From positions 1 through 46,300 of the forward strand of contig CAMDOH010000001.1 in assembly GCA_945903605.1 (NCBI GenBank): a stretch of 46,300 nucleotides of DNA, given 5' to 3'. Positions 7,377-42,955 of the stretch are shown piece by piece. This DNA comes from Akkermansia muciniphila. GTDB lineage: Bacteria; Verrucomicrobiota; Verrucomicrobiia; Limisphaerales; UBA1100. A model generated the notes under the pieces. That model ran no database searches. It was not told the origin of the DNA and was given only the letters and a program-made list of their open reading frames with translations. Both the position numbers and the translations under genes were made by a program. Every line of letters begins with the position of its first letter. Position 1 is the stretch's first letter.

Positions 7377-8662
7377 TCGGCTCGAAATCAACGCAGTCCA
7401 CGCCAGCACAGGCTTCGAGTTGGCGATGGTGGGTAAGCGGGTTGCTGCTCTTTGCCACCATGATCAACTACATGGACCGGCAAACTCTGGCCAATGTCGC
7501 TGTCCGGATCACCAACGAATACGGTCTCAATAACGAACAGTACGGCAGTTTGGAGACGCACTTTGGTTTGGCGTTTGCCTGCGGATCGATCGGATTCGGG
7601 TTTCTCGTGGATCATGTCAGCGTCCGCTGGCTGTATCCTTGCGTGCTCGCTTTGTGGTCTGCAGCCGGATTCATGACGGCGAGCACGACTTCATACGATG
7701 AACTTCTATTGTGTCGCACCGTGCTGGGTTTCTTCGAAGCAGGTCATTGGCCTTGCGCATTGAAGACCACTCAACGACTGCTCTCACGCGACGAACGCAC
7801 ACTGGGGAACAGTGTCCTGCAAAGTGGCGCGTCAATCGGTGCCATCGCCACGCCGCTCATCATGCAATGGATGCTTGCAGGCCATTCAGAACCCGGTGCG
7901 TGGAGGCAACCCTTTCAAGTGATCGCCGGCGTCGGAGCGATTTGGATCGTTTTTTGGATCTGGATGATGCGACGCGTGGAAATTGAACCTGAAAAAAATG
8001 CAGGCGTTGGGCCGGCTTCAAAATGGTCGCCGCACCATTTATTCGAAGCGATCTTCAGTCGGCGCTTCTTGGTGCTGCTCGTGGTGGTCGCCTGCATCAA
8101 TGTGTGCTGGCAATTGGTTCGCGCTTGGCTGCCAAAATTCCTCCAAGAAGGCCGTGGGTACACTGAATCACAAGCGCTCTATTTCAACTCGGTTTATTAT
8201 ATCGCCACCGATGTCGGTTGTCTCACAGCAGGCGCGGTGACGCTGTGGTTGGCAAGACGCGGATGGAGCATTCACGCTTCACGCTGTTGGGTATTTGGCG
8301 TCTGCGCGATCTTGACATCGTTGACGGTGCTCGTCTCCCAATTGCCGCACGGCACCGCGTTACTCGCCGTCCTGTTGATAGTCGCCGCTGGTTCACTGGG
8401 GCTTTTCCCTTGCTACTATTCGTTCATGCAAGAGTTGAGCATTTCCGACATGGGCAAAGTCACCGGATTGCTCGGTGCATTTGCGTGGATCGTTTCATCG
8501 CCGTTACAGAAACTTTTTGGCCGGCTCATCGATCAAACAAAATCCTACGATCTCGGCATCGCCTTGGTCGGCTGTGTTCCGCTAATCGGTTTGGCGGCGT
8601 TGCTCATTGGGTGGCGTCCATCGCGTCAGGCAAACTCTGAAATTCAAAATCAAATCCAATGA
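7373..8662 (+). CDS. MFS transporter (anion:cation symporter / hexuronate transporter-like)
   Basis: Multiple TM helices; [28 protein letters not shown] resembles ExuT/ACS family. Start ATG at 7373 overlaps the upstream TGA (ATGA). Confidence 0.9.
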
Positions 8663-10587
8663 TTGGCGAAGATATTTATCAACTGCGCACCAAGGCCACT
8701 GGGCCTTCCGGCAAGTTGCCGGTGAATGAGGACATCCTGCTGAACCAGCCCAGCGGCAATCTTTTTGGTTGGACGCAAAATGCAGGGATGGGCTGGGATC
8801 CCAGCGAATTCGGTCGCAAACAATTTCTGATTCTCAGCACGCAGGGCGGATTGCGCGCTCCTGATGGACAGCCCATCGCGCTTGGCTATCACACAGGCCA
8901 TTGGGAAATCGGCCTGCTGCTGGAAGCGGCGGCGCGCGAGTTTCGCAACCTGAAAACGATCCCGTTCGCTGCTTATTGTTCTGATCCTTGCGATGGCCGT
9001 ACGCAGGGCACGACAGGGATGTTTGATAGCCTGCCGTATCGTAACGACGCCGCGCAGTTGTTCCGCCGACTCATCCGATCGCTACCTGTTCGTTCGGGTG
9101 TGCTCGGAATTGCGACGTGCGACAAAGGGCTTCCGGCAATGATGATGGCATTGGCAGGGACGCCCAATCTTCCGTGCGTGCTCGTGCCCGGCGGCGTGAC
9201 GCTGCCGCCAATAAACGGCGAGGATGCAGGTGCAGTGCAGACTCTCGGCGCGAGATATTCGCATGGGTTGGTCACACTAGATGAGGCGGCTGATTTGGGC
9301 TGTCGCGCCTGCGGAACGCCGGGCGGCGGCTGCCAGTTTTTGGGGACGGCTGCGACTTCACAAGTCGTCGGCGAAGCACTGGGAATGTCGTTGCCACATT
9401 CAGCTTTGGCTCCATCGGGCGAGGCTGTTTGGATGGATATGGCGGTGCAATCTGCGCGCGCTGTTGTCGAGTTGGAACGACGTGGATTGAAGATGCGCGA
9501 TGTGTTGACGGACGCCGCGATTCACAATGCGATGGTTGTCCACGCAGCATTCGGTGGATCGACGAATCTGATTCTTCATGTCCCAGCCATAGCCCATGCT
9601 GCTGGGTTGCGCCGACCGACGGTTGAGGATTGGATCGATGTGAATGCAAAGGTGCCTCGAATTGTGAGCGTGTTGCCCAACGGACCGGTGCATCACCCGA
9701 CAGTGCGCGTGTTTCTCGCGGGCGGTGTGCCGGAAGTGATGCTGCATCTGCAAAAGTTGGGTCTGCTGAAACTGGACGTATTGACGGTCACGGGGCGGAC
9801 GTTGGGAGAGAATCTTGACGAATGGGAAAAGTCGGAGAGACGGGTTCGTTTCCGTGAGTTACTCAAGTTGAATGACGGCGTGGAAGCGGATGACGTGATC
9901 ATGTCGCCAGAGAAAGCCAAGATGCGAGGGATGACGAGTACGGTCGCATTTCCGCGCGGGAATATTTGTCCCGAGGGCGCGCTGATAAAGGGAACGGCGA
10001 TCGATTCCAGTGTGGTGGATTCCGATGGAGTTTATCGCAAGGTAGGATCGGCGCGAGTTTTCACCAGCGAGAAAGCGGCGATTCTGGCCATCAAAGAAAA
10101 GCGTATTCAGGCCGGCGATGTGATGGTGCTCGCTGGTATTGGCCCGATGGGGACTGGGATGGAAGAGACCTATCAGGTGACGAGTGCGCTCAAGCATTTG
10201 CCATTCGGAAAACATGTAGCGCTGATCACCGATGCGCGTTTCAGCGGAGTCTCCACCGGGGCTTGTATCGGGCATGTGGGGCCGGAGGCATTGGCCGGCG
10301 GACCTATTGGTAAATTACGCGATGGCGATGTGATTCAAATTGAAATTGATCGCAATGCAAACACGGGGCGTGTGAATTTTATAGGTGAGTCAGGCCAAAA
10401 GTTCAGTGCAGAGGAGGGTGCGCAAATTCTTGCCGCACGTCCTATGAGAGATGACCTCGCGGCCAATCCGAATTTGCCCAGCGACACGCGAATGTGGGCT
10501 GCGCTTCAGCAAATCAGCGGGGGAACTTGGGGCGGCTGCGTGTTCGATGCCGATGCGATTTGCAATCGGCTCGGGAAATCAGGCTAG
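8659..10587 (+). CDS. IlvD/Edd family dehydratase, YjhG/YagF (D-xylonate dehydratase) subgroup
   Basis: [100 protein letters not shown] closely match YjhG-type dehydratases from memory. ATGA overlap with the MFS gene. Confidence 0.92.
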
Positions 10588-21461: not shown

Positions 21462-24400
21462 TCACTTCACTGTCAGGTTGAAGCTTTCTGAATGTGAGTT
21501 GAATTCGGGGGCGTACATGCTCTGGATTTCGGCGATGCCGGTCTGATATTGGCCGCGGTGCTGCACGCGCACGGAGTATTCAAACACGTAAATACCCTTG
21601 GCCAGATAATCCATGAAGTAGTGGCTGGCGGTGTCGCGCGTCGTCTCGTAGTAGCCCAGGCCGTCTTGATAACGGTAGCGCGAGAGGACATTGACTGGCT
21701 CCGTACCGGAACCGCGCTGGTCTTTGAGGTGCACGTATTCCATGTCGCGATCGGTGCGCAATTCGATGCGCACGACCAGTTCATCGCCCACGTTGACGAG
21801 TCCGTTTTTGACGGCTTCGAGCACGGGGCCTTTCTTCGTGTTGACCTTTGTGAAAAGCGTTTTCTTGAGCTTGAGCGGTGTGCCGTCGTGCGGGGTGACT
21901 TTGCTCATATCCTCGAAGTATTGCCAGTGAACGCTGCCCCAAGAGACGCCTTCGTCGACTTTCTTGACGGTGATCTTGCCCATCGTCGATTTGATGTCGA
22001 TGGGTGAAAAGCGTTTCTCGTAAAAGCCGGTGCCGGCCTCGACTTGTGCGGGCTTGATGGTCTGTCCGGCCAGAGCTACTTCGACGAGTGCGTCGGATGC
22101 CAGCAGGTTGTTTCCGCGCAGGAGCAGACCGTAGATGGCATCGGCGGTGGCTTTGGTGGTTTTCCAATCCTGAGTCTGCTTTTGTTTCAAGAGCCAGACT
22201 TTGCAATCTTCGACAGCCACACTGTCGCCCATCACTTCGTCAAATGCCTCAATCATCATCGCCTGCGTTTCGATCGGGGCGCGGTACCACCACCACGAGA
22301 GCTCGAGGTCGCGCCAGAACATCCCCATTTCCTCGTTGGAGACGGATCGTTCCTTGATGGAGGCCATGATGCCTTTCGGTGTTTCGAGGTCACCAAAGCG
22401 TTTGAGTGCGACGGCGATGTGTGCCTGCGACTGGCGATTGGCCAGTTGCAGCCAGTATTTCTTGGACTGACCGATGAAATAATCAACGGCCTCTTTGTGC
22501 GGCGCGGCAACGGGCTTGTCCTTCAAGAAGAAGCTGCGGCCGTAGAGATACAGCGCGATGGTCGGCGAAAGATGGTTCGCATCCTTATCTTTGCTGTAGC
22601 GCAGAATGTCGCGATAAGTTTTGTCGATCCACCCATCAAGTCGGGCGATGGATTTCACTGCCGAATCAACGGGGACATCCACACCCAGATGGCGCATGCG
22701 GCCAAATCCTGTGGTGATGTAGAGCGTGATGTAGTCATTGGCCGGTCCGCCGGGGAACCACGGCCATGCGCCGTCGCCCAACTGCATCTGCGCGAGCTTT
22801 TGCAGGTTGCGCGTGGTCTCGTCGTTGAGCCGGTTGCCGTCAAACAGAATGCCGACGTTTTTGCGCGCCTGACTTTCAGCCTGAGCTTGTCGAAGCCAAG
22901 GAGTCTCCTCGAGCATCACCGATTTCAGATCCTGATTTTTTTCCAGCGGACTATCGAGTGCCGGTGTGCCTTTCCAGAGATCAAACACGTGCCGGATTTT
23001 TGGATCGGAATTGGCGATGTGCCGCGCGAGTGCGTTGGCATACAGCCGGCTGAAGATCTGTTCCGAGCATTCATGGGGATATTCCATCAGGTAGGGCAGG
23101 GCCATGATGCCGTACCAAGCCGGCTGCGAGACCATTTGCACGGACATGTTTTGGTGCTTGAGCGTCTTCGAGTTGGCTGACTGGCTTAGTTTGAGGAAAT
23201 CAAACTGCTTCGTCTGCTTGCCACGAATGGGCAGCGGCAGAGATTCGGTGACGAGGATGCGGCGCGAGAGGACGGGCAGATGACCTTCCTCGCCGTCTGA
23301 AAGCCGACCTGTGGATGCGACGGCTTTGTAGGTGAGGAATCCAGTTTCGTCGGGAACTTTCAACCGCCACGAATACGTGCGCGACTCTTTCGAAGGCACA
23401 TCGAATGCGATGGTAGGCGAGGTATTGCCCAGCGCCTTGTCTGCCGATCCATTGTTGAACGCCTCAGCCAATTGCAACGCGACTTTGCCGGTCTGTCGGC
23501 CAGCGGATTGGTTGGAGACTTTGACGGTGAATTCGAGTTGATCGCCCTCGCGCAGGAATCGCGGCGGATTCGGCTGCACCATGATTTCCTTGGCAGTGAC
23601 CACGCTGTCTTGCAGCAGGCCGCCTCGCAGATTTTTGTCGTGAGAGAAGCCCATGAATTTCCATTCCGTGAGCGCCTCGGGCATGGTGAATTGCATTTTT
23701 ACGACGCCATTGGTGTCCGAGATCAGATGAGGGAAGAAGAAGGCCGTCTCGTTGAGGTTTTTGCGGGCGGAGACTTTGCCGAGATCCGGCGCATTGCCGC
23801 CGCCGCCGCCGGAATTCTCCCGTTCGCCGTCGCTTTGTTTGTCGGACAACGCACGACGTTTCTCGCTACCGGCAGACTTGGCGTCGCTGCGATTTTGCGC
23901 GCCATTCTGCTGCATTTCCATCGCCATGCCGGGCGCCATAGCAGCAGAGGCTTCAGGAAATCCATCTCCCTTTCGTAATGCGCCACCGGGGCCGCCACCC
24001 ATGCCGCCACCTCTGCCGAAATATTGGTAGCCCCAATAGTTGCCGATGATGTCCTGCGGGAAGGAACGGTATGAGTAGCTGGTATCGCGGTAACTTGACG
24101 GGAAATTACCGAGGATGTGTTGCAGTCCTTTCACACTATTTTCAAACTGGGAATTGCGCCGGGAATGATCCGAACGGAACACTCCAAAGCCACCCATGAA
24201 ATGATGGGGGGCAAAAGCGTCGAGCGATTTGTCATAAAGCGCGGCAACAACTTCAGCGACGGATTTCTTGCCATCGTGACCGGTGATGACAGCCGTCCAG
24301 GTTTCTTTCTGTGCTGGCTCGAGTTTCGAGACGAAGTGTTCCCATTTGATGGTCAGATTTTTGTTGTTCCAAGGCACGGCAACGGAATGCGAATTGATGT

Positions 24401-27400
24401 AGGCACGGTTCTCGCGCACCATGGTGACGTGGAGAGTGAATCCGCCGCGCATGGCTTCGGTGACGGCTTGCTTGATGGCAATTTGAGTGTCGGCTGGCCG
24501 TGTCCAGAATTTTTGTAGGATTTGGCCGCGATGCTCGATTTCGATGAAGGCGCGCGCGCGGTCGTAACCCGATCCCCAAAGCGCCATGAATTCTTTGCCG
24601 GGTTCAGTGGACCAATCGGGCGCGTTGAGAAGGTGCGGGATTTTGATGCCGAGTTTGTTTGCAGCGGGCTTGAGCACTTGCACGGGCAATCGAGTGGTGA
24701 CTTTTTTGCCGAAGCGATCTTGCGATTCGACGATCACTCGATAGGCGCCTTCAGCCAACTTGAAGTTGAAGACGAGTTTGCCGGTGGCATCGGTGGTCCA
24801 TCCTTTCGTTTCGGCCACAGCGCCCAATTCCCATGAATTGACGTTGGACGGATCAGCGGCAGGAGTGGGGGAGATGAGGATGCCGCCTTTGCCGCGTCGT
24901 GGTTGCGGGTTGTAATTATAATTGCCGCCGAGTTTGGCGCGTTCCACTTTCGCGGGTTCCTTGAGTTTGTAAACTTTCAGCGAGCCTTCGGCTTTTTGCG
25001 GTTCGCCATCGAGGGTCACCGTGCTGAGTGTGATCGAAACCGCTTTTTCATCGGTCTGCCAGTCGGTGGCAGTGAGGTTTGCCTGCAATGCCGTGTAGCC
25101 GACATTGACGCTGGAACTGCCCGATCGTGTCTCACCGGTGTTGTCTGTCACATCGGCGTTGATGCTGTAGTGGAAGGTTGGCTCGTCTTTTTCGGGCACA
25201 GATAAATCGGGTTTGGCTTCAAACTCGATGGTGAATGTTCCGTCGGTGCCGGTCTTGGCAGTGCCATGCGCAATTTCCTGACTGGGACTTTGCGGGAACG
25301 GCCGCCACCAATAATGCCAGCCCCACCACGCGGGATATCGGACTTGTCGTGTGACGCGCCATTGCACTTTCGCGCCATCGATCACCGCGCCGGTGTAGGC
25401 CGTTGCGGTGCCTTTCAGCGAAACTTTGTCATCCAATCGCGCCGCTGTTTTCGGAGCGGCGAGGGCGACTTGGAATTTGGGGCGTTTGTACTCCTCGACA
25501 TTCACGGCGGTGCTGCCCGCGGGGCCGTCTTGTGTGAAGATGCTCATCCGACCCATGAGTCGGTCGCGCGGCGCGGTGAAACTTCCGCTGAAGGAACCGT
25601 AATCGTTGGAACGAACTTTCTGTCGGGTGATTTCTTTGTTGTTGGGGTCGCTGAATACCACTGTCAAATCGCGGTTGGCTACGATCTGATAATCGTCCTT
25701 GTCGGAATCGACGTGGATGCAGATGCCCTTGTACGAGACAGTCTGGCCGGGACGATAGAGTGCGCGGTCGGTGAAGAACACCGTGCGGTCGTACGGGCGC
25801 TGCGTATAATTGTTTTGATACATCCAATACTCGTTCTGCGAGGAGAGCTGCTGATTTTGGTGTTTGGCAAATACGAGGATACCGCGCTGTTGAACGCCCT
25901 CGATCTTGAACAGGCCGGACTCATCGGTCTTGCGCGCGGGTAGTGCCTCGAGTTGATTGTTGTTGGTGCGCTGCCACGAGGAGATCTCGGCGCCATCAAT
26001 CGGGTCGCCAGTGATGGCATTGAGCACGAATCCCTCCAGCCGTCCTTCTCCATGAAGTGTGCGCATGACGATGGCCAGATCGCTGACCCAAAAGTCGGAG
26101 AAGGAGACGATGTTGTTGGCTTCGCTGAATTCCTTGTTATGGCTCGAAATGATGTAGTACGAGCCGGGCTTGATGTCTTCGGGCGAAGTGAGGGATTCGA
26201 CACGGCCGTGATAATCGGGCGTTGGCGGCAATTGGGCTGACCATTCGAATTCGGCTTTCTTGGCCAGAAGCGCTTTGCGTTCGTTGTTGTCGAGCCATTC
26301 CGGGCGACGATTGCGTTTGACGAGCATGTCGTTCCAATCGTAGGCGACAACCCGGAAGTGAACCTCGGTGAGGTTGCGATAGTTGACATCAATTTTCGGG
26401 CGCGGATTGTTCCAAACGCGCTCGGTCTGGATGCTGGAAGTCTTCGATTCAATCTGCTGAATGATGTTGAAACACATGTTGCCGCCGATGCTGTTGGGAT
26501 GAGCGCCAATGCCCCGTTTGGCCAGTTTGTGTGCCTCGACCAAATCGCCTTCCTGTTGCAGGACGCTTGCCCAATAGGCCAGCGCGCGAGCGGAAAGTTC
26601 GTGATCAGCCCAGCGGTCGACACTCACTTTGAGTGCCGCCTTGTAGAGCTTGTTTTTGTCTTCACCAAAGGCGGTGTTTTGTCCGTAAACCAATCGAGCG
26701 AGATCCGCATCGATGAACGCCGTGTTGTCCGCGTCCTTCTCATGGAACCGAAGCAGGTCTTGCAGGAGCCGGATTGCTTTGACCTGTTTGGAGTCCGTAT
26801 CGGTGATGGCGTCCAGTTTCCACGCCATGAATTTATCAGCCGCGGCAAAAATCGGGCTGGTTGCCAACAGGACAAAAGCGTCTTCGGCCTTGGCGCCTGC
26901 TTGTTCGCCGGAGGAGTAAAACTTCAACGCTTCGTGTGCGAGGAAATCAAACATCGTCGGGCGATAGCTATCGGGCAATGTGCCTTTTTGAAGGAGGTCG
27001 TTGTACGTGGCGATGGGAATGGTCTTGAGAACTTTTTCCGCCGAGAGTGCTTTCGTGAATTGCTTGTCGATTTCCGCCATGATACGGGGCAAATCCCATG
27101 TGGTGAAATCTTTGCCCGGCGCCTCGGCCGTTTGTGTGCGCTGCATGAAGCGCCAGCGATTCTGTTGGAAAAAGTGCCAGTACCAATTCGCCAGAACGGT
27201 GTCCAAAACCGGCACAATTTCTTTCGGCGCCTTGGCAATCTCGGCCTCCAGTCGAAGAATCTTTTCCTCCGGCTTGTTGCCTTGGATATTACCTTCAAGA
27301 GTGATTCGGCGCGCGATGGCCTTCACCACTTCAGGATAAGCCTTGTCTTTGAGTGCGCCTTCGATGATCGGCACCAGATTCGTGATGGCCGTTTTGGGCA

Positions 27401-27524
27401 GACCTTTACTGATGGCTTCATCGACCGCTTTCCATTGGGCATCGCGAGGGCCTGCTTTCAATGCCTGAACCAATCCGGTGCTGATGACTGCTGCCAGTAG
27501 GGGAACTAGTAGGAACTTGCGCAT
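21462..27524 (-). CDS. Alpha-2-macroglobulin family protein with CxEQ thioester motif
   Basis: MRKFLLVPLLAAVISTGLVQA signal; MG domains (YRPGQTVSYKGI...), A2M domain ARKNLNETAFFFPHLISDTNGVVKMQFTMPEALTEWKFMGFSHD, thioester-like YPHECSEQIFSR. Start set at ATG 27524. Confidence 0.93.
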   Translation of the reverse strand: MRKFLLVPLLAAVISTGLVQALKAGPRDAQWKAVDEAISKGLPKTAITNLVPIIEGALKDKAYPEVVKAIARRITLEGNIQGNKPEEKILRLEAEIAKAPKEIVPVLDTVLANWYWHFFQQNRWRFMQRTQTAEAPGKDFTTWDLPRIMAEIDKQFTKALSAEKVLKTIPIATYNDLLQKGTLPDSYRPTMFDFLAHEALKFYSSGEQAGAKAEDAFVLLATSPIFAAADKFMAWKLDAITDTDSKQVKAIRLLQDLLRFHEKDADNTAFIDADLARLVYGQNTAFGEDKNKLYKAALKVSVDRWADHELSARALAYWASVLQQEGDLVEAHKLAKRGIGAHPNSIGGNMCFNIIQQIESKTSSIQTERVWNNPRPKIDVNYRNLTEVHFRVVAYDWNDMLVKRNRRPEWLDNNERKALLAKKAEFEWSAQLPPTPDYHGRVESLTSPEDIKPGSYYIISSHNKEFSEANNIVSFSDFWVSDLAIVMRTLHGEGRLEGFVLNAITGDPIDGAEISSWQRTNNNQLEALPARKTDESGLFKIEGVQQRGILVFAKHQNQQLSSQNEYWMYQNNYTQRPYDRTVFFTDRALYRPGQTVSYKGICIHVDSDKDDYQIVANRDLTVVFSDPNNKEITRQKVRSNDYGSFSGSFTAPRDRLMGRMSIFTQDGPAGSTAVNVEEYKRPKFQVALAAPKTAARLDDKVSLKGTATAYTGAVIDGAKVQWRVTRQVRYPAWWGWHYWWRPFPQSPSQEIAHGTAKTGTDGTFTIEFEAKPDLSVPEKDEPTFHYSINADVTDNTGETRSGSSSVNVGYTALQANLTATDWQTDEKAVSITLSTVTLDGEPQKAEGSLKVYKLKEPAKVERAKLGGNYNYNPQPRRGKGGILISPTPAADPSNVNSWELGAVAETKGWTTDATGKLVFNFKLAEGAYRVIVESQDRFGKKVTTRLPVQVLKPAANKLGIKIPHLLNAPDWSTEPGKEFMALWGSGYDRARAFIEIEHRGQILQKFWTRPADTQIAIKQAVTEAMRGGFTLHVTMVRENRAYINSHSVAVPWNNKNLTIKWEHFVSKLEPAQKETWTAVITGHDGKKSVAEVVAALYDKSLDAFAPHHFMGGFGVFRSDHSRRNSQFENSVKGLQHILGNFPSSYRDTSYSYRSFPQDIIGNYWGYQYFGRGGGMGGGPGGALRKGDGFPEASAAMAPGMAMEMQQNGAQNRSDAKSAGSEKRRALSDKQSDGERENSGGGGGNAPDLGKVSARKNLNETAFFFPHLISDTNGVVKMQFTMPEALTEWKFMGFSHDKNLRGGLLQDSVVTAKEIMVQPNPPRFLREGDQLEFTVKVSNQSAGRQTGKVALQLAEAFNNGSADKALGNTSPTIAFDVPSKESRTYSWRLKVPDETGFLTYKAVASTGRLSDGEEGHLPVLSRRILVTESLPLPIRGKQTKQFDFLKLSQSANSKTLKHQNMSVQMVSQPAWYGIMALPYLMEYPHECSEQIFSRLYANALARHIANSDPKIRHVFDLWKGTPALDSPLEKNQDLKSVMLEETPWLRQAQAESQARKNVGILFDGNRLNDETTRNLQKLAQMQLGDGAWPWFPGGPANDYITLYITTGFGRMRHLGVDVPVDSAVKSIARLDGWIDKTYRDILRYSKDKDANHLSPTIALYLYGRSFFLKDKPVAAPHKEAVDYFIGQSKKYWLQLANRQSQAHIAVALKRFGDLETPKGIMASIKERSVSNEEMGMFWRDLELSWWWYRAPIETQAMMIEAFDEVMGDSVAVEDCKVWLLKQKQTQDWKTTKATADAIYGLLLRGNNLLASDALVEVALAGQTIKPAQVEAGTGFYEKRFSPIDIKSTMGKITVKKVDEGVSWGSVHWQYFEDMSKVTPHDGTPLKLKKTLFTKVNTKKGPVLEAVKNGLVNVGDELVVRIELRTDRDMEYVHLKDQRGSGTEPVNVLSRYRYQDGLGYYETTRDTASHYFMDYLAKGIYVFEYSVRVQHRGQYQTGIAEIQSMYAPEFNSHSESFNLTVK

Positions 27525-27690
27525 AGGTTTTTCGATTCGTCCGTTGGTGGGGTGTGACGGTTTTTGGCTGGGATTACTCCAAGCAAAATTGGGCAATGGC
27601 ATCACCGAGCCAGAATGCCTCAGCATTCAAACCGTTGCAAGCTGCCAACTTCAATCTGGCAACGACTTTGACCGGAAGCGCAAAGCCCCT

Positions 27691-28631: not shown

Positions 28632-30188
28632 ATGGAATCGCACGTTGAAATCTACGACACAACCCTGCGCGATGGGTCGCAGGGCGAGGGCATCAACTTC
28701 TCGGTGGCAGACAAGCTGCGCATCGCCGAGCGGCTTGACGCTTTCGGTGTGCATTTCATCGAGGGTGGCTGGCCGGGTAGCAATCCGAAGGACATCGAGT
28801 TTTTCGCACAGGCCAAAAGGAAAAAGTTCAAACACGCCAAACTCGCTGCCTTTGGATCCACACGTCGGAAACGCGTGCCTGTCGAGAATGATGAACAAGT
28901 GCGATTGCTCATCGAAGCCCAAACGCCCGTCGTCACCATTTACGGCAAGACGTGGCAGTTGCACGTGAAAGAGGTGCTGCGTTGTTCTCCCGAGGAAAAT
29001 CTCGCGATGATCAGCGATACGGTGCGCTTTCTCAAAGATCACGGGAAATTTGTCATATACGATGCCGAGCACGGCTTTGATGGCTTCAAGGATGATGCAG
29101 ATTATGCGTTGGCCACTTGGGTCGCCGCCGAAAAAGCCGGTGCGGACATCGTGACTCTGTGCGATACGAATGGGGGTTGTTTGCCCATCGAGATTGCAGC
29201 CATCACGAAAGTCGCCATTGGCAAATTGAACAGCCGGATCGGCATTCACACGCATAACGACATCGGATTGGGCGCAGCCAACGCCATCGCGGCGCTGGAA
29301 GTTGGCGCCTCGCACGTGCAAGGCACCATCAACGGCTACGGCGAACGCACGGGTAATTGCAATCTGACCAGCCTCATTCCGTGCATCGCCATCAAGATGA
29401 AGCGGAGTTGCGTGAAGCCGTCGTCATTGCCGAAGCTCAAAGAACTTTCTCAATTCGTCGATGAGGTCGCGAATATCCGGCACGATCCGCGCCAGCCGTG
29501 GGTCGGTTCGGCCTGTTTCGCTCACAAGGGTGGAACGCATGTGAACGCAGTTCAGAAAATTGCGCGCAGTTACGAGCACATCGATCCCGCTCTTGTCGGC
29601 AATGCGCGCAATGTGCTCATCAGCGATCTGGCTGGACGCAGCAACATCGTCATCAAAGCGCAACAACTCGGTTTTAAGATCACGAACGACACGCCAGAAC
29701 TGAAACCCATCCTTTCGCGCATCAAGGATCTCGAACATCTGGGCTACGAATTTGAAGCAGCCGAAGGATCGCTGTCGTTGTTGCTCAAGCGCATTCTTGA
29801 GCACAAAGAATTGCCATTCGCTGTGGATGCTTATCACGTTTCGATGCGCGGCGATGGCAAAGGTTCTGTCTGCGAAGCGACGGTGCGGGTGCGAGTGGGC
29901 AGCGAGATTTCGCACACAGTCGCCGAGGGTGATGGCCCGGTGAACGCACTCGATGGTGCGTTGCGCGCGGCACTGGCGCGGTTTTTCCCCAAGCTGAAAA
30001 ATATCCGGCTCACCGACTACAAGGTGCGCATTATCAATTCATCCACCGGCACGGCGGCCAAAACGCGCGTGCTCATCCAATCCACGAACGGTCAGCGCGA
30101 GTGGGGCACGGTGGGTGTGAGTGAGAACATCATTGAAGCCTCGTTGCAGGCGTTGGTGGACTCGATGGAATTCGCTTTGACACGATAA
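28632..30188 (+). CDS. cimA: (R)-citramalate synthase
   Basis: DRE-TIM motifs: EIYDTTLRDGSQGEGINFSVADKLRIAERLD, GIHTHNDIGLGAANAIAALEVGASHVQGTINGYGERTGNCNL, C-terminal LeuA-type regulatory domain. Confidence 0.95.
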   Translation: MESHVEIYDTTLRDGSQGEGINFSVADKLRIAERLDAFGVHFIEGGWPGSNPKDIEFFAQAKRKKFKHAKLAAFGSTRRKRVPVENDEQVRLLIEAQTPVVTIYGKTWQLHVKEVLRCSPEENLAMISDTVRFLKDHGKFVIYDAEHGFDGFKDDADYALATWVAAEKAGADIVTLCDTNGGCLPIEIAAITKVAIGKLNSRIGIHTHNDIGLGAANAIAALEVGASHVQGTINGYGERTGNCNLTSLIPCIAIKMKRSCVKPSSLPKLKELSQFVDEVANIRHDPRQPWVGSACFAHKGGTHVNAVQKIARSYEHIDPALVGNARNVLISDLAGRSNIVIKAQQLGFKITNDTPELKPILSRIKDLEHLGYEFEAAEGSLSLLLKRILEHKELPFAVDAYHVSMRGDGKGSVCEATVRVRVGSEISHTVAEGDGPVNALDGALRAALARFFPKLKNIRLTDYKVRIINSSTGTAAKTRVLIQSTNGQREWGTVGVSENIIEASLQALVDSMEFALTR

Positions 30189-31264: not shown

Positions 31265-31270
31265 TTGCCG

Positions 31271-33940
31271 ATGCCAGAAATCCCAAAAGCCTACGAGCCG
31301 CAGGCGGTCGAGGAGAAGTGGTACCAGTTCTGGCTGGAGCAGGGTTGCTTCAGTGCCGATCCCGCGCGCGTTTCCACGACTCGTCCGGCCTATTCCATCG
31401 TCATCCCGCCGCCCAATGTCACGGGCGTGCTCACGCTCGGTCACGTTCTTAACAACACCATTCAGGACATTCTCGCCCGCAAGGCGCGCATGGATGGCAA
31501 GGAAGTTCTCTGGCTGCCGGGCACCGATCACGCGGGCATCGCTACGCAGACGGTCGTGGAGCGCACGCTCAAAAAGGAGAAGGTCATCCGGCATCGCGAC
31601 GATCTGGGCCGCGATAAGTTTTTGGAGAAGGTCTGGGCTTGGAAGGAGAAACACGGCGGCATCATCATCGAACAGCTCAAGAAACTCGGCTGCTCCTGCG
31701 ACTGGTCGCGCGAACGCTTCACGATGGATGCGGGATATTCGCGCTGCGTGCAGCAAGTCTTCGTCGAGCTTTACAAGAAGGGTCGCATCTATCGCGGCAA
31801 ACGGATGGTGAGTTGGTGCCCCGCCTCACTCACGGCACTCTCTGATGAGGAAGTGGTGATGAAGGAGCAGAGGGGGTTCATGTACCACTTCAATGTGGAA
31901 GTGGCCGAGGCACCCGGCACATGGCTCACCATCGCCACCACGCGACCTGAAACGATTCCCGGCGACACCGCCATCGCAGTGAATCCGAAAGACCCGCGCT
32001 ACGCGCATCTCATCGGCCAGCACGCCGTGCGTCCGTTGCCGGTGGAATTGCCGCGCGAACAAAAACTCATCCCGATCATTGGCGATGCGCATGTGGATTT
32101 TGAGTTCGGCACCGGCGTGCTGAAGGTCACGCCCGCGCATGACAAGGCCGATTTTGAGATTGGCGCGCGCCACAAGCTCGCGGCCATCGACATCATGAAT
32201 CCGGACGGCACGATGAACAATCTGGCCGGCGTGGACTTAGTGGGACTCGATCGTTTCAAGGCGCGCAAAGTGGCGGTGGAAAAGCTGGGCGAACTGGGCG
32301 CGATGGTGAAGGAAGAACCGTATGCCAACAACGTCGGCTACAGCGAACGCGCCGATGTGCCCATCGAACCGCGCTTGAGCGAGCAGTGGTTTTTGAAATA
32401 TCCGGGCGTGGAGGCAAGCGCGAAGTGCGTGGCCGAGGGGCGGTTGAAATTTTATCCCGAGCGCTGGGCCAAGGTGTACGACCATTGGATGGGCAACATC
32501 CAGGACTGGTGCATCAGCCGCCAGCTTTGGTGGGGACACCGCGTGCCGGTGTGGTATCGCGGCGCTGAAGTTTATTGCGGACTCGAGGCGCCGCAGGGTG
32601 AAGATTGGATTCAAGACCCCGACGTGCTCGACACGTGGTTCAGCTCGTGGCTCTGGCCCTTTGCCACGATGGGCTGGCCGGAGCAGACCGACACGCTGAA
32701 GAAGTTTTATCCCACGACCGATCTTGTCACGGGGCCGGACATCATTTTTTTCTGGGTCGCGCGCATGATCATGGCCGGGCACGAGTTCATGGGCGAGATG
32801 CCCTTTTGCAACGTCTATTTCACCGGCATCATCCGCGACAAACAGGGGCGCAAGATGTCCAAGAGCTTGGGCAACTCGCCCGACCCGCTCGATCTCATTT
32901 CCAAATATGGCGCCGACGCGCTGCGCTTTGGCGTGATGCGTGCCGCGCCGATTGGGCAGGATATTTTGTTTGATGAGCAAGCGGTGGAACTGGGCCGCAA
33001 CTTCTGCAATAAACTCTGGAACGCTTGCCGCTTTCGCCAGATGCAGGGCGGCGAAACGGAAGGCGAGATCGCGCCCGCGCTACTCACAAGCGACGACAAA
33101 TGGATTTTGCTTCGTCTGGACCAAGCCATCACTGAAGTGACGGCCGCTTTTGCCGGGTATAAATTCAGCGATGCCACCGCCACGCTCTACCGGTTTTTCT
33201 GGAGCGAATATTGCGACTGGTATGTCGAGGCGAGCAAAGCGGTTTTCTTTGGCAGCGACGCCGCGCGCAAAGCCAATACGCTCGCCGTGATTGATTTTGT
33301 CCTCGGCCACACGCTGCGGCTTTTCCACCCGTTCCTGCCGTTCATCACCGAGGAACTATGGAATGGAATGGGATTTGCCACGGACATGCCGCTGGAGCAA
33401 GGCGGCAAAACCATCATGACGGCCTGCTGGCCAAAACCGCTGGGCGATGAATTCAAGAGCAACTATGGATTGGATGTGACGGACGAACAATTTGTCGCCA
33501 CCAAACACGAGTTCGTCACGCTCGGCCGCAATCTCAAGACGCAGTTTAATCTCTCCTCCAAGCGCGTCGCCTTTTTATTCCGTCCCGAAGGCACATTGCC
33601 GCCGCATGAACTGGAAGTACTGCGCCTCCTGCTCGGTGCCGAAAAAATCGACTGCATCACCGACGCGCCCGACAAAGGCACACCCGCCGTGCGCAACGCG
33701 CTGGGTGAACTTTTTCTACCGCTCGAAGGCGTGGTGGACATGACGGCCGAACGCACGCGCCTGGGCAAAGAGCTGGAAAAGATTGCCGCCGAGATTGAAA
33801 AAGTGCAGGCCAAGCTGGCCAACCCCGGCTTCACCGAAAAAGTCCCCGCGGCCGTTCTGGCCGAACATCAAACCCGCCTCGCCGACTGGCAATCCAAGCG
33901 TGATCGACTTCAGACCGCGTTGGGAAATCTGGTCTCCTGA
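31271..33940 (+). CDS. valS: Valyl-tRNA synthetase
   Basis: PPPNVTGVLTLGHVLNNTIQDILAR (HIGH-type), GRKMSKSLGNSPDPLD (KMSKS), C-terminal coiled coil. ATG at 31271 preferred over TTG 31265. Confidence 0.97.
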   Translation: MPEIPKAYEPQAVEEKWYQFWLEQGCFSADPARVSTTRPAYSIVIPPPNVTGVLTLGHVLNNTIQDILARKARMDGKEVLWLPGTDHAGIATQTVVERTLKKEKVIRHRDDLGRDKFLEKVWAWKEKHGGIIIEQLKKLGCSCDWSRERFTMDAGYSRCVQQVFVELYKKGRIYRGKRMVSWCPASLTALSDEEVVMKEQRGFMYHFNVEVAEAPGTWLTIATTRPETIPGDTAIAVNPKDPRYAHLIGQHAVRPLPVELPREQKLIPIIGDAHVDFEFGTGVLKVTPAHDKADFEIGARHKLAAIDIMNPDGTMNNLAGVDLVGLDRFKARKVAVEKLGELGAMVKEEPYANNVGYSERADVPIEPRLSEQWFLKYPGVEASAKCVAEGRLKFYPERWAKVYDHWMGNIQDWCISRQLWWGHRVPVWYRGAEVYCGLEAPQGEDWIQDPDVLDTWFSSWLWPFATMGWPEQTDTLKKFYPTTDLVTGPDIIFFWVARMIMAGHEFMGEMPFCNVYFTGIIRDKQGRKMSKSLGNSPDPLDLISKYGADALRFGVMRAAPIGQDILFDEQAVELGRNFCNKLWNACRFRQMQGGETEGEIAPALLTSDDKWILLRLDQAITEVTAAFAGYKFSDATATLYRFFWSEYCDWYVEASKAVFFGSDAARKANTLAVIDFVLGHTLRLFHPFLPFITEELWNGMGFATDMPLEQGGKTIMTACWPKPLGDEFKSNYGLDVTDEQFVATKHEFVTLGRNLKTQFNLSSKRVAFLFRPEGTLPPHELEVLRLLLGAEKIDCITDAPDKGTPAVRNALGELFLPLEGVVDMTAERTRLGKELEKIAAEIEKVQAKLANPGFTEKVPAAVLAEHQTRLADWQSKRDRLQTALGNLVS

Positions 33941-33997
33941 ACAGGGTTTTGGTTGTCAGAATCGGTCGGCGTGCCATTCTCGATCGTCACCCAATCC

Positions 33998-35104
33998 ATG
34001 AACCGCTCATCCATCGCACTCACGATTTCACTCGCGTTCGCTGTTCCAATGTCAGTGTTTGCCGCTGCATCAGTTCCTTGCTGGCAATCACGCGAACTGG
34101 CAGGCGACCCGCTTTTCTTTGTGACATCTGCTGGCGATACGCTGGCAAAGGCATCACTGCTGCGAGTGCCGGAGAAGGCGCCGGTTCTGAAAAGTGCTTC
34201 GGGCGAAATTGTCTATGAACTCGGACGCGACTTCACTTGGAAGCCGGGTTCACGACTGATCGTGCTCACCCAAAACTCGCGCATGCCGTTCAAGACACTT
34301 GCCGAGTTGCATCCTCCACCAGGTTCGCCCAACGCCTATAAATCAACGGTGGATGGCAAATCGTGGTTGCTCTACAGTCAGGGAAGATTTTTTCACGATT
34401 TGCAATGCGCGGCCAGTTACACGGCGCGCGATGATTGGATGCCTCCGCGCGTCCCTGTTGCCCCGATTGTACAACTGCAGAAGATCCGTGCGCGTCTGGC
34501 CGCGAAGCAACCCATCAAACTCGTCGTGCTCGGCGACAGTATTTCGACCGGACTCAATGCCTCGATGACTGGGAATGCGCCGCCGAAACAGCCCGGATAT
34601 CCCGGATTGGTTGCGCAGGGATTGGAGCAGAGGTTCGGTTCGAAGGTCACACTCGTCAATCTGTCGGTCAGCGGCATGTCTGCGTCGTGGGGATTGTCCC
34701 AAGCGGATGCGGTGATCAAAGAAACCCCCGATCTTTTTCTGTGCGCCTTCGGAATGAACGATGCATCCGGTAAAATTCATCCTGAACTGTTCGCGAACAC
34801 CCTTCGCGCCTTGGTCGATAAAGTCCGTGCCGCTCATCCGGGATGCGCTGCCATCGTAGTTTCTTCGATGACCGCCAATCCAGAATGGATTCATGCCACA
34901 CCGCCCCTCTACCCCGCATACGCCGCCGCACTCGAAAAGTTGACGGGTCCGGGCATCGCCGCTGCGAATGTGACGTCGGTTTGGATGGCGCTTTTGGAAC
35001 GCAAGCAAGTGCTCGACTTCACTGGCAACGGGCTGAATCACCCGAATGATTTTGGCCATCGGATTTATGCCGATGTGATTCTGGGCGTCATCGGCGACAA
35101 CTAG
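33998..35104 (+). CDS. Secreted SGNH/GDSL hydrolase
   Basis: Signal peptide at ATG 33998; VVLGDSISTGLNASM (block I GDS), FGMNDASG, C-terminal NHPNDFGHRIYAD (block V). Confidence 0.88.
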   Translation: MNRSSIALTISLAFAVPMSVFAAASVPCWQSRELAGDPLFFVTSAGDTLAKASLLRVPEKAPVLKSASGEIVYELGRDFTWKPGSRLIVLTQNSRMPFKTLAELHPPPGSPNAYKSTVDGKSWLLYSQGRFFHDLQCAASYTARDDWMPPRVPVAPIVQLQKIRARLAAKQPIKLVVLGDSISTGLNASMTGNAPPKQPGYPGLVAQGLEQRFGSKVTLVNLSVSGMSASWGLSQADAVIKETPDLFLCAFGMNDASGKIHPELFANTLRALVDKVRAAHPGCAAIVVSSMTANPEWIHATPPLYPAYAAALEKLTGPGIAAANVTSVWMALLERKQVLDFTGNGLNHPNDFGHRIYADVILGVIGDN

Positions 35105-35107
35105 TTT

Positions 35108-36481
35108 ATGAACACAACAACGATGGCTCAAATGATTCTCAGCAGATTGTCGGTGAGCGTCGTTGCCGTTCTCTGCAGCGTGACGTTGCTCGTTGCCAAA
35201 GAATTGGCTGCGGACGTGAATCGGCTGGTCGGAGTTTCGCAGATTGATATCACGCCCGATTATCCAGTGAGGTTGACGGGTTATGGCAGCCGGCGCGAGG
35301 AAGCTTCAAAGGTCGAGCAACGGCTCCGTGCGAAAGCGCTCGCCTTTGGCAGCGACGCAGAAGGCCCGGCGGTGTTGGTGACGGTGGACAATCTCGGCGT
35401 GCCCGCATCGATGCGCACGGAGGTATTGCGCCGCGTTGCCACTCAATCGAAACTGCAGTCGGAGCGTTTCACCATCTCATCCAGCCACACTCATTGCGCG
35501 CCGATGCTGCTGGGTTTGGCTCCAAACATTTTCAGCATGGATATTCCGGCGGAACATTTGCCCGCCATTGAGCGCTACACCCGCGAGCTGACGGATAAGC
35601 TGGAGCAAGTGATTCTCGCCGCGCTGGCCAATCGAAAGCCAGCGCGATTGCATTGGGGGATCGGTAAAGTCGGTTTCGCGGCCAATCGGCGCAGCTTTCC
35701 CATCAAGCCTGTGGATCACGATCTGCCGGTGTTGCGTATCACAAATCCGAACGGCGACGTACGCGGAATTCTCACTGGCTACGCCTGTCATTGCACCACG
35801 CTTTCATCCAACTTCTTTCACGCGGACTGGGCTGGCAGCGCGCAATTGGCGCTCGAACGCGAGTTTCCCGGCGCGATCGCGTTGACGGCAATCGGCTGCG
35901 GTGCTGATCAAAATCCCGCGCCGCGCAGCACATTGGAGTTGGTCACTCAACACGGCGAAGCGTTGGCAAAAGAAGCGAAGCGGCTCGTCAACGAAAAGCT
36001 CACACCGGTGAATGGCGCGTTGGTTTGTCGGACAAAAAACATCGAGCTGGCCTACTCCAAACTGCCCACTCGCGAAGAATGGCAAGCCATCGCTGATGGA
36101 AAATCGGGTGGCGTTTATCATGCGAAGAAGAATCTCGCGCGACTTGACCGTGGAGAAAAACTGCCCACGAAACTTCCGTATCTCGTGCAGACATGGTCCT
36201 TCGGCAACGAACTGGCGATGGTCTTTCTCCCCGGCGAAGTGGTGGTGGACTATTCGCTGCGATTGAAACACGAATTCGATCGCACGCGACTTTGGGTCAA
36301 TGGCTATTCCAACGACGTGCCGTGTTACATTCCATCCAAACGCGTGCTGGACGAAGGCGGCTACGAAGGCGGTGGTGCCATGATTTACTTTGACCGGCCA
36401 ACAAAATTCGCGGGCGATGTCGAAGATCGCATCATCAAGGCCGTGCACGAGTTGATGCCAAAAGGATTCCTCGCCAAGTGA
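35108..36481 (+). CDS. Neutral/alkaline ceramidase-like secreted protein
   Basis: GVSQIDITPDYPVRLTGYGSRREEASKVEQRLRAKALAF, ISSSHTHCAPML, TAIGCGADQNPAPR: neutral/alkaline non-lysosomal ceramidase N-terminal domain features. Confidence 0.85.
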   Translation: MNTTTMAQMILSRLSVSVVAVLCSVTLLVAKELAADVNRLVGVSQIDITPDYPVRLTGYGSRREEASKVEQRLRAKALAFGSDAEGPAVLVTVDNLGVPASMRTEVLRRVATQSKLQSERFTISSSHTHCAPMLLGLAPNIFSMDIPAEHLPAIERYTRELTDKLEQVILAALANRKPARLHWGIGKVGFAANRRSFPIKPVDHDLPVLRITNPNGDVRGILTGYACHCTTLSSNFFHADWAGSAQLALEREFPGAIALTAIGCGADQNPAPRSTLELVTQHGEALAKEAKRLVNEKLTPVNGALVCRTKNIELAYSKLPTREEWQAIADGKSGGVYHAKKNLARLDRGEKLPTKLPYLVQTWSFGNELAMVFLPGEVVVDYSLRLKHEFDRTRLWVNGYSNDVPCYIPSKRVLDEGGYEGGGAMIYFDRPTKFAGDVEDRIIKAVHELMPKGFLAK

Positions 36482-37563
36482 CCGCAAAATCCACAGCCAT
36501 GAATCTGCACAACCCATCGCGCCGCCTGTTCATCAAGTCAACATTCGCCGCGAGCGTGTCGCTTTCGGTCTCGTCGCAGCTGTTGGGAGCAGATGTTGCA
36601 TTGTCGATGGTTCGCATCGGCAATCCTGTGGGCGGACACATTCATCCCGCAGCTTGTGTGAGTGCGAAAGGCACCATTGTCGTCACGTACGGACACACCA
36701 ATCATCGCGACCTTCGCATCACGCGCTCGCCCGACGGCGGCACGATTTGGAGCGAGCCAAAACCGTTCGCGCCCACAGTTGGCAGATCTTATTATCCCGG
36801 TTCACTCACGACGTTGCGGGATGGCCGACTGTTGCACGCGTGGAATCGTTGGAGCGAACCGACCAACGAAAAAGAGCCGCGCTCGGTCCTGTATTCGCTT
36901 TCGAGTGACGATGGAATGACGTGGTCTGAGCCAAAACCATTTCCACGCGACGAAACTAAGCCGAGCATCATCCGTCATCCCATCGTGGAACTCGCAGCGA
37001 ATCAGTGGCTGCTCCCGTTGAGCGACAAGACGCAAGTATTCGACCCCACGACGGGCGCGAGCCAGCCATTCGGGGATGCGCGCGCGCACGGATTGGTGCC
37101 GCTCGTTCGCACCCCGAAAGGCACATTCATCAGTGGAGCCGGATTGAGGTCAATCGATGCCGGGAAAACCTGGCAGCCCATCGCGCAATTCCCGAACGTG
37201 AAGGAACAAGGATGGCGTCACGAGATGGTCTGCCTCGCCAACGGTTGGTTGTTGGCGTCGGAGATTCTCGGGCCGGGTGTCGGAGGCGAACGCATTCGTT
37301 ACGTGATTTCGCGCGATGACGGCATCCGGTGGGACGACGTGTTCGAATATTACAATCCCGGCCGTGCGATTGGCGGCCGCGCTTGTCCTCGCACGATTCA
37401 ACTCAATGCGGACAATATCGGAGTCGTATTCTACGACGTCGATTCTAAGCAAGTCGGTGGCTCGGGTTTGTTCTTTATGAAAATACCGGTTGCCAAAATT
37501 GACCGCGGCTCGGTGAAACGCGAGTCGCACAGCACTCCACTCAGAGACTCAATCCCAAAATGA
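36478..37563 (+). CDS. Exported sialidase/BNR-repeat protein
   Basis: SRRLFIKSTFAASVSLSVSSQLLGA leader; BNR/Asp-box-like repeats (ITRSPDGGTIWSEPKPF, LSSDDGMTWSEPKPF, SIDAGKTWQPIAQFP). GTG 36478 overlaps upstream TGA; ATG 36499 is an alternative start. Confidence 0.87.
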   Translation: MTAKSTAMNLHNPSRRLFIKSTFAASVSLSVSSQLLGADVALSMVRIGNPVGGHIHPAACVSAKGTIVVTYGHTNHRDLRITRSPDGGTIWSEPKPFAPTVGRSYYPGSLTTLRDGRLLHAWNRWSEPTNEKEPRSVLYSLSSDDGMTWSEPKPFPRDETKPSIIRHPIVELAANQWLLPLSDKTQVFDPTTGASQPFGDARAHGLVPLVRTPKGTFISGAGLRSIDAGKTWQPIAQFPNVKEQGWRHEMVCLANGWLLASEILGPGVGGERIRYVISRDDGIRWDDVFEYYNPGRAIGGRACPRTIQLNADNIGVVFYDVDSKQVGGSGLFFMKIPVAKIDRGSVKRESHSTPLRDSIPK

Positions 37564-39692
37564 AACCCGTCATTGTTCTTGGTCTATTGCTCATCGCTGC
37601 GACGCCGCTGCATGCGGAGTTCAAGGCTGGAGCTGCCGTGTTGGATGTCACACCAACCCAATTGCCCGTGTTCATCAATGGCGGAATGCTCAGCCGATCT
37701 TTGGAGAAAATCAAAACGCGCGTCCATGCGCGGGCCATCGTCTTGGCCGACGACAAAAGTCAGCTTGCGATGGTGGTCGTGGACAGTTGCATGATCGGTC
37801 GCGTGTTGATCGACGAGGCCAAAACAATTGCGGCCACTCGCACGGGCATCCCAACCAATCGCATCCTCATCTCCGCCACACATTCGCACAGTGCGCCGGC
37901 CTCGATGGGCTGCCTCGGCACCGATGCCGATCCTGCGTACGTGCCCGTGCTGCGGCAAAAACTCGTCGATGTCATTGCCGCTGCTCAGGCAAATCTGGAG
38001 CCTGCACGAATCGGATTCGCCAAGGCCGACGCCGCAGGATTCACGGCGTTGCGACAATGGATTCGCCGGCCCGACCGCCTGGAGATGGATCCGTTTGGAA
38101 ACAAGACAGTGCGCGCCAACATGCACGCAGGGCGTGTGTGGGATGATGTCACGGGTGAAGCGGGGCCTGAAGATCCGGATCTTTCGCTTATCTCAATTCA
38201 ATCACGTGATGGGCGCCCCATCTCGGTGATGGGCAATTTTTCGATGCACTACTTCGGCGACTCAGATATCAGCGCAGATTATTTTGGGCTTTTCTCCGAA
38301 GGATTGATGACTCGCATTGCTCCAAAACCTGTCGCTGGCAAGCAAGCATTCGTCGGAATTCTTTCGCACGGTTGCAGCGGCGACATCTGGCGGATGGACT
38401 ACACGATCCCAGAAAAAGATCGACCCAAGCCGACGATCGACGAGTACACAAATGGCCTGCTCGATATTGCCGTGAAAGCCTACTCCGGAATCCAATATCG
38501 CGCGGATGCAGATATCGCGATGGCCGAGCAGCGAGTGACTTTGAAATATCGGGTGCCGGACAAACAGCGGCTCGAGTGGGCGCAGCGAACACTCGCTGAC
38601 ATGGGCGATCGCGCTTTGAAAAGCACCGCCGAGGTGTATGCGCGCGAGGCAATCCTGCTTCACGAACGGCAGCAAACCGAAATTGTCGTGCAGGCATTGC
38701 GCATTGGCGACATCGGTATCGCCACGACTCCGTGCGAGACTTACGCTGTCACTGGATTGAAAATCAAAGCGGCCAGTCCGCTGCCACACAACATGGTCAT
38801 CGAGCTGGCCAATGGTGGCGATGGTTACATTCCGCCACCGGAACAATATCCATTTGGCGGTTACAACACTTGGCCGGCACGCTCTGCGGGTCTCGAAGTG
38901 TTGGCCGAGCCGATCATCGCCGGTGCCGCCATAAACCTGCTCGAGAAAGTTTCTGGCAAACCGCGTCGCGAATGGAAACTCAGCGAAGGTACTGCCGCGC
39001 GCGCCGTTCTCGACGCCAAGCCCGCAGCGTATTGGCGGATGAACGAATTCACAGGTCCGCATGCCGCCGACGCCACCGGTCACGGGCTGCACGCCACTTA
39101 TGAATCCGGGATCACTTACTATCTCGAAGGGCCGCAGTCGGCATCGTTTTGCAAAGCGGATGAAAAGAATCGCGCGCCGCATTTTGTCGGTGGCCGACTG
39201 AGCGCACGCGTGGCGAACCTCGGAAATCGATATTCCGTTTCACTCTGGCTTTGGAATGGGATGCCGAACGACGGGCGCGATGTCAGCGGCTGGTTGTTTT
39301 CCCGTGATCACAATCACGGTCTTGGAAACTTGGGCGATCATCTCGGTATCGGCGGCAAGAGCGCTCACACGGGCAAGTTGATTTATTTCAATGGAGGCAA
39401 TCCACAGGCGGTTGTCGCCGGCAAATCCGAGATTCCGCGCTGGCAATGGAGACAAGTCACCTTTGTGCGCGATCGCCAATCGATTCGCATTTATCTGAAT
39501 GGTCAGCTTGAAATTGAAACAAAGATCGTGGCGGATTTCCCAGCTGGGTTTGATCAGTGTTTCTTTGGCGGTCGTAGCGACAACCAATCCAACTGGGAAG
39601 GAAGGCTCGACGAAATCGCTGTTTTCAATCGCGCACTGAGCGAAGCTGAGATTCTAAAACTTCAGGCAAAATCTGTCCCAGCGCAAAAGTGA
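37560..39692 (+). CDS. Neutral ceramidase-like protein with C-terminal LamG/concanavalin-like domain
   Basis: N-terminus AGAAVLDVTPTQLPVFINGGMLSRS, ISATHSHSAPASMGCLG, ILSHGCSGDIWRMDY; C-terminus KPAAYWRMNEFTGPHAADATGHGLHATY...LYLNGQ-type LamG features. ATGA overlap with the sialidase gene. Confidence 0.87.
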   Translation: MKPVIVLGLLLIAATPLHAEFKAGAAVLDVTPTQLPVFINGGMLSRSLEKIKTRVHARAIVLADDKSQLAMVVVDSCMIGRVLIDEAKTIAATRTGIPTNRILISATHSHSAPASMGCLGTDADPAYVPVLRQKLVDVIAAAQANLEPARIGFAKADAAGFTALRQWIRRPDRLEMDPFGNKTVRANMHAGRVWDDVTGEAGPEDPDLSLISIQSRDGRPISVMGNFSMHYFGDSDISADYFGLFSEGLMTRIAPKPVAGKQAFVGILSHGCSGDIWRMDYTIPEKDRPKPTIDEYTNGLLDIAVKAYSGIQYRADADIAMAEQRVTLKYRVPDKQRLEWAQRTLADMGDRALKSTAEVYAREAILLHERQQTEIVVQALRIGDIGIATTPCETYAVTGLKIKAASPLPHNMVIELANGGDGYIPPPEQYPFGGYNTWPARSAGLEVLAEPIIAGAAINLLEKVSGKPRREWKLSEGTAARAVLDAKPAAYWRMNEFTGPHAADATGHGLHATYESGITYYLEGPQSASFCKADEKNRAPHFVGGRLSARVANLGNRYSVSLWLWNGMPNDGRDVSGWLFSRDHNHGLGNLGDHLGIGGKSAHTGKLIYFNGGNPQAVVAGKSEIPRWQWRQVTFVRDRQSIRIYLNGQLEIETKIVADFPAGFDQCFFGGRSDNQSNWEGRLDEIAVFNRALSEAEILKLQAKSVPAQK

Positions 39693-42878: not shown

Positions 42879-42955
42879 TGGTCGGAGCGACAGGATTTGA
42901 ACCTGCGACGGCTTGGTCCCAAACCAAGTGCTCTACCAGGCTGAGCTACGCTCCG
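42879..42955 (-). tRNA. tRNA-Pro (anticodon TGG), CCA encoded
   Basis: Minus strand CGGAGCGTAGCTCAGCCTGGTAGAGCACTTGGTTTGGGACCAAGCCGTCGCAGGTTCAAATCCTGTCGCTCCGACCA: acceptor CGGAGCG/CGCTCCG, anticodon stem CTTGG/CCAAG with TTTGGGA loop. Confidence 0.97.

Follow-up and report, generated by a model that had tools for sequence, protein, structure and literature searches.

In a 46,300-nucleotide stretch of DNA from Akkermansia muciniphila (contig CAMDOH010000001.1; hereafter the window), four open reading frames (ORFs) on the forward strand at positions 33998–39692 form a real, compact secreted operon that brings known folds together in an unusual combination. In order, they encode an SGNH esterase (SGNH), a ceramidase-type zinc hydrolase (CER1), a sialidase-fold propeller protein (BNR) and a second ceramidase-type zinc hydrolase (CER2). 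Our favoured reading, to which we give about an even chance, is that the four are transcribed together and encode hydrolases that work outside the cytoplasm on an acylated glycan or glycolipid. A previous sequence-only reading had the gene order and domain calls right, although 'sialidase' turned out to be true of the BNR fold only.

ORFs were called mechanically, domains were assigned with Pfam and the junction letters were inspected directly. SGNH (33998–35104, +) is an SGNH/GDSL-2 esterase of 368 amino acids (aa) with a ~130-aa N-terminal extension (Lipase_GDSL_2, 8e-19); an alternative upstream TTG start at 33953 is possible. CER1 (35108–36481, +; 457 aa; Ceramidase_alk, 3.9e-15) follows after a 3-nucleotide (nt) gap (TAG-TTT-ATG). 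BNR (36478–37563, +; 361 aa; BNR_2, 1.3e-11) overlaps CER1 through GTGA, starting at a GTG codon with an ATG 7 codons further in, and CER2 (37560–39692, +; 710 aa; Ceramidase_alk 1.6e-9, Laminin_G_3 1.2e-17) overlaps BNR through ATGA. Direct reading of these junctions bore out the compact four-gene layout described earlier. Codon-position GC content supports all four ORFs as coding, and their best identities to relatives in other genomes are 55% (SGNH), 68% (CER1), 83–84% (BNR) and 77–78% (CER2). Leaders judged by eye, not by a predictor, agree with the earlier claim of four exported proteins: they are Sec-like in SGNH, CER1 and CER2 and Tat-like (SRRLFIKS) in BNR, in contrast to the Sec-like leaders of BNR relatives in family f26. 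Upstream, valS (31265–33940) stops just 57 nt short of SGNH, and transcription may therefore set in further upstream; downstream, a DUF218 gene lies at 39770. A scan for promoter-like sites gave nothing above the shuffled-sequence level, and no convincing promoter or terminator at the operon ends.

To characterize the two ceramidase-like enzymes, profiles built from relatives of CER1 (21 sequences) and CER2 (20 sequences) were compared with solved structures. CER1 His127, His228, Glu377 and Tyr407 align with His97, His204, Glu411 and Tyr448 of the Pseudomonas ceramidase (PaCD), which we take to be its zinc ligands, and are invariant (21/21); the CER2 counterparts, His108, His230, Glu393 and Tyr423, are invariant in 20/20 sequences. 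The PaCD catalytic residues His99, Arg160 and Tyr460, whose human counterparts have been described (PMC6952831), correspond to His129, Arg194/195 and Tyr419 in CER1 (21/21) and to His110, Arg165 and Tyr435 in CER2 (20/20). Tyr423 and Tyr435 of CER2 were assigned by motif and spacing, and the other CER2 residues by alignment. When a CER1 model (predicted local distance difference test (pLDDT) 89) was searched with Foldseek against the PDB, the only confident matches were the neutral ceramidases 2zws, 2zxc and 4wgk (probability 1.00, E-values (E) of 1e-23 to 1e-25, template modelling (TM) scores of 0.69–0.71). In both proteins the Ceramidase_alk match is restricted to the N-terminal part of the Pfam model, as has been described for PF04734 (PMC4443539). 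CER1 and CER2 are both members of the neutral-ceramidase superfamily; for CER2, membership of the fold comes from the sequence profile only. The earlier description of two distinct ceramidase-like enzymes, one with a LamG domain, holds at the level of superfamily, active-site residues and the Laminin_G_3 match.

The features that mark ceramide specificity are a different matter. The serine of the amidase motif GDVSPN (human Ser354) is replaced by Asn269 in CER1 (profile alignment against structures) and by Trp277 in CER2 (motif alignment). In human neutral ceramidase this serine stabilizes the catalytic arginine, holding it in place (PMC6952831), so its loss is a change and not proof of inactivity. 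No Pfam match to a C-terminal immunoglobulin (Ig)-like domain was found in CER1 or CER2. CER1 has 457 aa compared with 646–688 aa for neutral ceramidases, and CER2 carries a C-terminal LamG/ConA-like domain (about residues 553–698) in place of the Ig domain. Given the replaced serine and the missing Ig domain, superfamily membership does not imply ceramide as substrate, and ceramide itself as the natural substrate is not upheld. A literature search on Ceramidase_alk proteins of the Planctomycetes–Verrucomicrobia–Chlamydiae (PVC) group found nothing in the collection of papers searched.

BNR has the sialidase fold and lacks key sialidase residues. Its AlphaFold model (pLDDT 78.5) is a sialidase-type propeller with Asp boxes; the top Foldseek match is 5hx0 (E 1.2e-12), with GH33 sialidases also among the best. 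In a profile alignment with PG_0352, Ile55 (GHIHP) occupies the position of the FRIP arginine, and Leu264 that of the second triad arginine, which lies 16 residues past the Glu. The same 16-residue distance separates Glu407 and Arg423 in Tannerella forsythia NanH, in which mutation of one triad arginine abolished activity (PMC9472817). The sialidase Glu is kept as Glu249, invariant in 14/14 aligned sequences. BNR has Ala302-Cys303 where its distant cousins in L162 and L163 (L163:9500-10450; 29–36% identity to BNR) carry Tyr-Ser, the catalytic-Tyr region lying outside the PDB alignments; in L162 a ceramidase-like gene lies about 5 kb from the BNR cousin. NanE, the one gene looked for, had no match in the window genome, an assembly about 92% complete. 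With both arginines missing and no NanE match, BNR is unlikely to be a sialidase: we rejected that function, and with it the suggested removal of sialic acid, while keeping the fold. The active-site check thus came out differently for the two groups, with zinc and catalytic residues kept in the CERs but two triad arginines absent from BNR, which keeps Glu249.

These results bear directly on a pathway modelled on the sequence-only reading, in which an esterase, a sialidase and two true ceramidases dismantle a ganglioside-like glycolipid. Family-level Pfam annotation, the conserved CER zinc sites and the sialidase-like fold of BNR all speak for it. Against these stand the substitutions at the triad arginines and the amidase-motif serine, the absence of NanE and Ig-domain matches, and the fact that sialidase-like and ceramidase-like genes are not co-conserved as a set. 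We regard this pathway as very improbable.

For SGNH, Ser181 (block I), Gly226 (II), Asn254 (III) and His348 (V) are invariant in 14/14 members of its family. The block V DxxH Asp, three residues before the His, is absent from all 14 aligned members; CE2 esterases often lack this Asp and tolerate its absence (PMC9487903). Membership of CE2 was rejected, as none of the 14 members matched the CE2 N-terminal domain (E 0.1). The nearest solved relative is RiCE17 (6hfz), a mannan 2-O-acetylesterase (PMC9487903). This relationship points to glycans, as do the LamG domain of CER2 and the SASA, 3-keto and Gfo/Idh neighbours of BNR and CER2 in genome G174 (described below). All three count against a lipid-directed alternative, whereby the two CERs act as N-acyl hydrolases on non-ceramide lipids (such as ornithine lipids or N-acyl amino lipids), with the propeller and SGNH in accessory roles. 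That alternative gains from the sole solved CER relatives being lipid amidases and from the presence of lysophospholipases among SGNH proteins, and we give it roughly one chance in four.

Conservation was surveyed in 320 genomes of the order, with counts including the window genome. Matches were found in 13 genomes for BNR (E ≤ 1e-20), 33 for CER2 (E ≤ 1e-225), 11 for SGNH (E ≤ 1e-40) and 65 for CER1 (E ≤ 1e-140). Comparison of the listed places placed all four genes, or any three of them, on one contig only in the window genome, and direct inspection of the surroundings of about 20 CER1 and nearly 60 CER2 genes turned up no other operon member. We therefore rejected conserved synteny of the quartet among the genomes surveyed; since many of these are fragmented, linkage may have gone unseen in some. 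Besides the window genome, only G171 and G174 have BNR and CER2 on one contig; they belong to one genus of another family, and their CER2 is 77–78% identical to that of the window. In G174, a nine-gene run (L153:4351-16163) encodes 3keto-disac_hyd, Gfo/Idh, FAD oxidoreductase, SASA, BNR, BNR_2-like, PD40, CER2 and GDSL proteins; genes of 3-keto-glycoside type are found there together with esterases (SASA and GDSL), CER2 and three propellers. This is carbohydrate-catabolism company. The G171 genes, identified by similarity to G174, are BNR, one of PD40 type, CER2 and a GDSL gene. Co-conservation, as earlier expected, thus fails for the quartet but holds for BNR with CER2, which recur beside other esterases; because of this recurrence a weaker functional link survives.

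Looser associations were also seen. In G165 a CER1-like gene (39%) lies downstream of BNR, and in G168 SASA-type genes flank BNR on either side, as read from the sequence. Ceramidase-like genes occur within about 5 kb of BNR at 4/14 other BNR loci, against ~0.5 expected, a rough estimate from a genome-wide frequency of 15 of them per 6 Mb. CER2 is commoner in genomes with BNR (11/13) than in the others (22/307; Fisher p 1.7e-10, uncorrected for kinship).

In a sister-genus genome, G001, valS, the IMPase gene and the helicase gene are syntenic with no quartet among them, and CER2 (72%) is located elsewhere, adjoining the helicase gene. Because the flanking order is kept without it, the quartet seems to have been put together in this lineage from surface-hydrolase modules of Verrucomicrobiota that occur dispersed among relatives. 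Horizontal transfer of the operon is possible. BNR is 76–84% and CER2 70–78% identical to f26; transfer from an f26-like donor was not established, as valS is also about 60–82% identical to f26, and the codon composition of the operon is not clearly foreign. The arrangement in G001, together with the location of the orthologues on separate contigs in almost every other genome, speaks for an alternative in which four unrelated secreted proteins were inserted by chance between valS and the IMPase gene, co-transcribed and without a common substrate. The tight GTGA and ATGA overlaps, the proximity of BNR to CER2 in another family and the excess of ceramidase-like genes near BNR argue against such a chance assembly, which we consider improbable.

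In the glycan or glycolipid reading that we favour, SGNH would take off O-acyl groups, probably acetyl, and CER1 and CER2 would cut an amide, possibly an ester, of a non-ceramide substrate in a Zn-dependent manner. A zinc-bound water would act at the neutral-ceramidase metal site, with Arg/Tyr oxyanion support and His/Tyr proton shuttling. The LamG domain would hold CER2 near the glycan, and the BNR propeller would bind or cleave a non-sialic sugar through an active site of its own (a conserved His/Arg/Glu cluster). Folds, conserved residues, gene layout and the surroundings of family members were observed directly, whereas export, co-transcription, all activities and the substrate are inferred. 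Four observations weigh against this reading. The conserved zinc site is compatible with lipid substrates too; the cluster itself showed neither a classical glycoside hydrolase nor a sugar transporter; as the quartet is not conserved, a single genome carries the functional tie of CER1 and SGNH to the rest; and these genomes commonly carry genes of the neutral-ceramidase superfamily, making chance insertion into a growing operon conceivable.

Further context comes from fusion proteins. In other genomes, three CER1-family and three CER2-family proteins are fused to DUF7133, HEAT and cytochrome c domains (Pfam), at loci that span both ceramidase-like clades (L028, L032, L034, L093, L126 and L134). 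About half of the CER1 matches at E ≤ 1e-140 lie within open frames of at least 800 aa, the confirmed fusions being the Pfam-tested ones only. DUF7133 has 26 matches in the window genome, none within the operon. We tentatively suggest, as a minority possibility, that the abundant Verrucomicrobiota and Planctomycetota proteins labelled 'neutral ceramidase' are not ceramidases but zinc-dependent amidases or esterases belonging to extracellular glycan machinery and tied to surface oxidation through these fusions, and that BNR is a new non-sialidase propeller enzyme working with them. Many PVC proteins are called 'ceramidase' or 'sialidase' from fold alone, and here the two labels part: the ceramidase-type zinc site is real while features specific for ceramide are lacking, and two residues that define a sialidase are absent. 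The cytochrome c dehydrogenase-like fusions and the carbohydrate-esterase company point to acylated glycans or glycolipids as a testable substrate class for a large uncharacterized enzyme group.

Elsewhere in the window, a bacterial alpha-2-macroglobulin of 2054 aa with MG2, A2M and bMG10 domains is encoded at 21462–27626 (−) and a dihydroxy-acid dehydratase-type gene at 8659–10587. A DUF1501 gene and a sugar-isomerase-type (AP_endonuc_2) gene (3237–4667 and 4716–5648 (−)) are typical company of PVC surface catabolism. A LeuA/citramalate-synthase-type gene (28632–30188) is followed directly by a ThuA-like gene and valS. A minus-strand tRNA-Pro (tgg) gene at 42879–42955 overlaps the start called for the helicase ORF, whose real start is probably downstream.

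Genes for PF06439, Gfo/Idh and oxidoreductase proteins of the 3-keto-glycoside pathway (DUF1080/PF06439, for example BT2157 and the Caulobacter lactose genes; PMC9007349) adjoin BNR and CER2 in G174, whereas the window operon has none. SGNH shares blocks I, II, III and V with the CE17/CE2 carbohydrate esterases (RiCE17, 6hfz); however, its N-terminal extension matches neither a CE2 nor a carbohydrate-binding module (CBM) domain, and RiCE17 itself keeps the block V Asp (PMC13276840). BNR has the propeller, Asp boxes and conserved Glu in common with GH33 sialidases (Porphyromonas gingivalis PG_0352, 8feb/8t26/8gn6; T. forsythia NanH) and differs at the two arginine positions occupied by Ile55 and Leu264; its best fold match, Dfer_1899 of Dyadobacter fermentans (5hx0), a protein whose function is not known, is only 19% identical. 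The CERs share the catalytic fold, the four zinc ligands and the catalytic His, Arg and Tyr with the P. aeruginosa neutral ceramidase (2zws/2zxc) and human ASAH2 (4wgk). They differ from both in having Asn269 or Trp277 for the serine, in lacking the Ig-like domain, in their about 19% identity, in the LamG domain of CER2 and in the fusion of their relatives to DUF7133-HEAT-cytochrome c.

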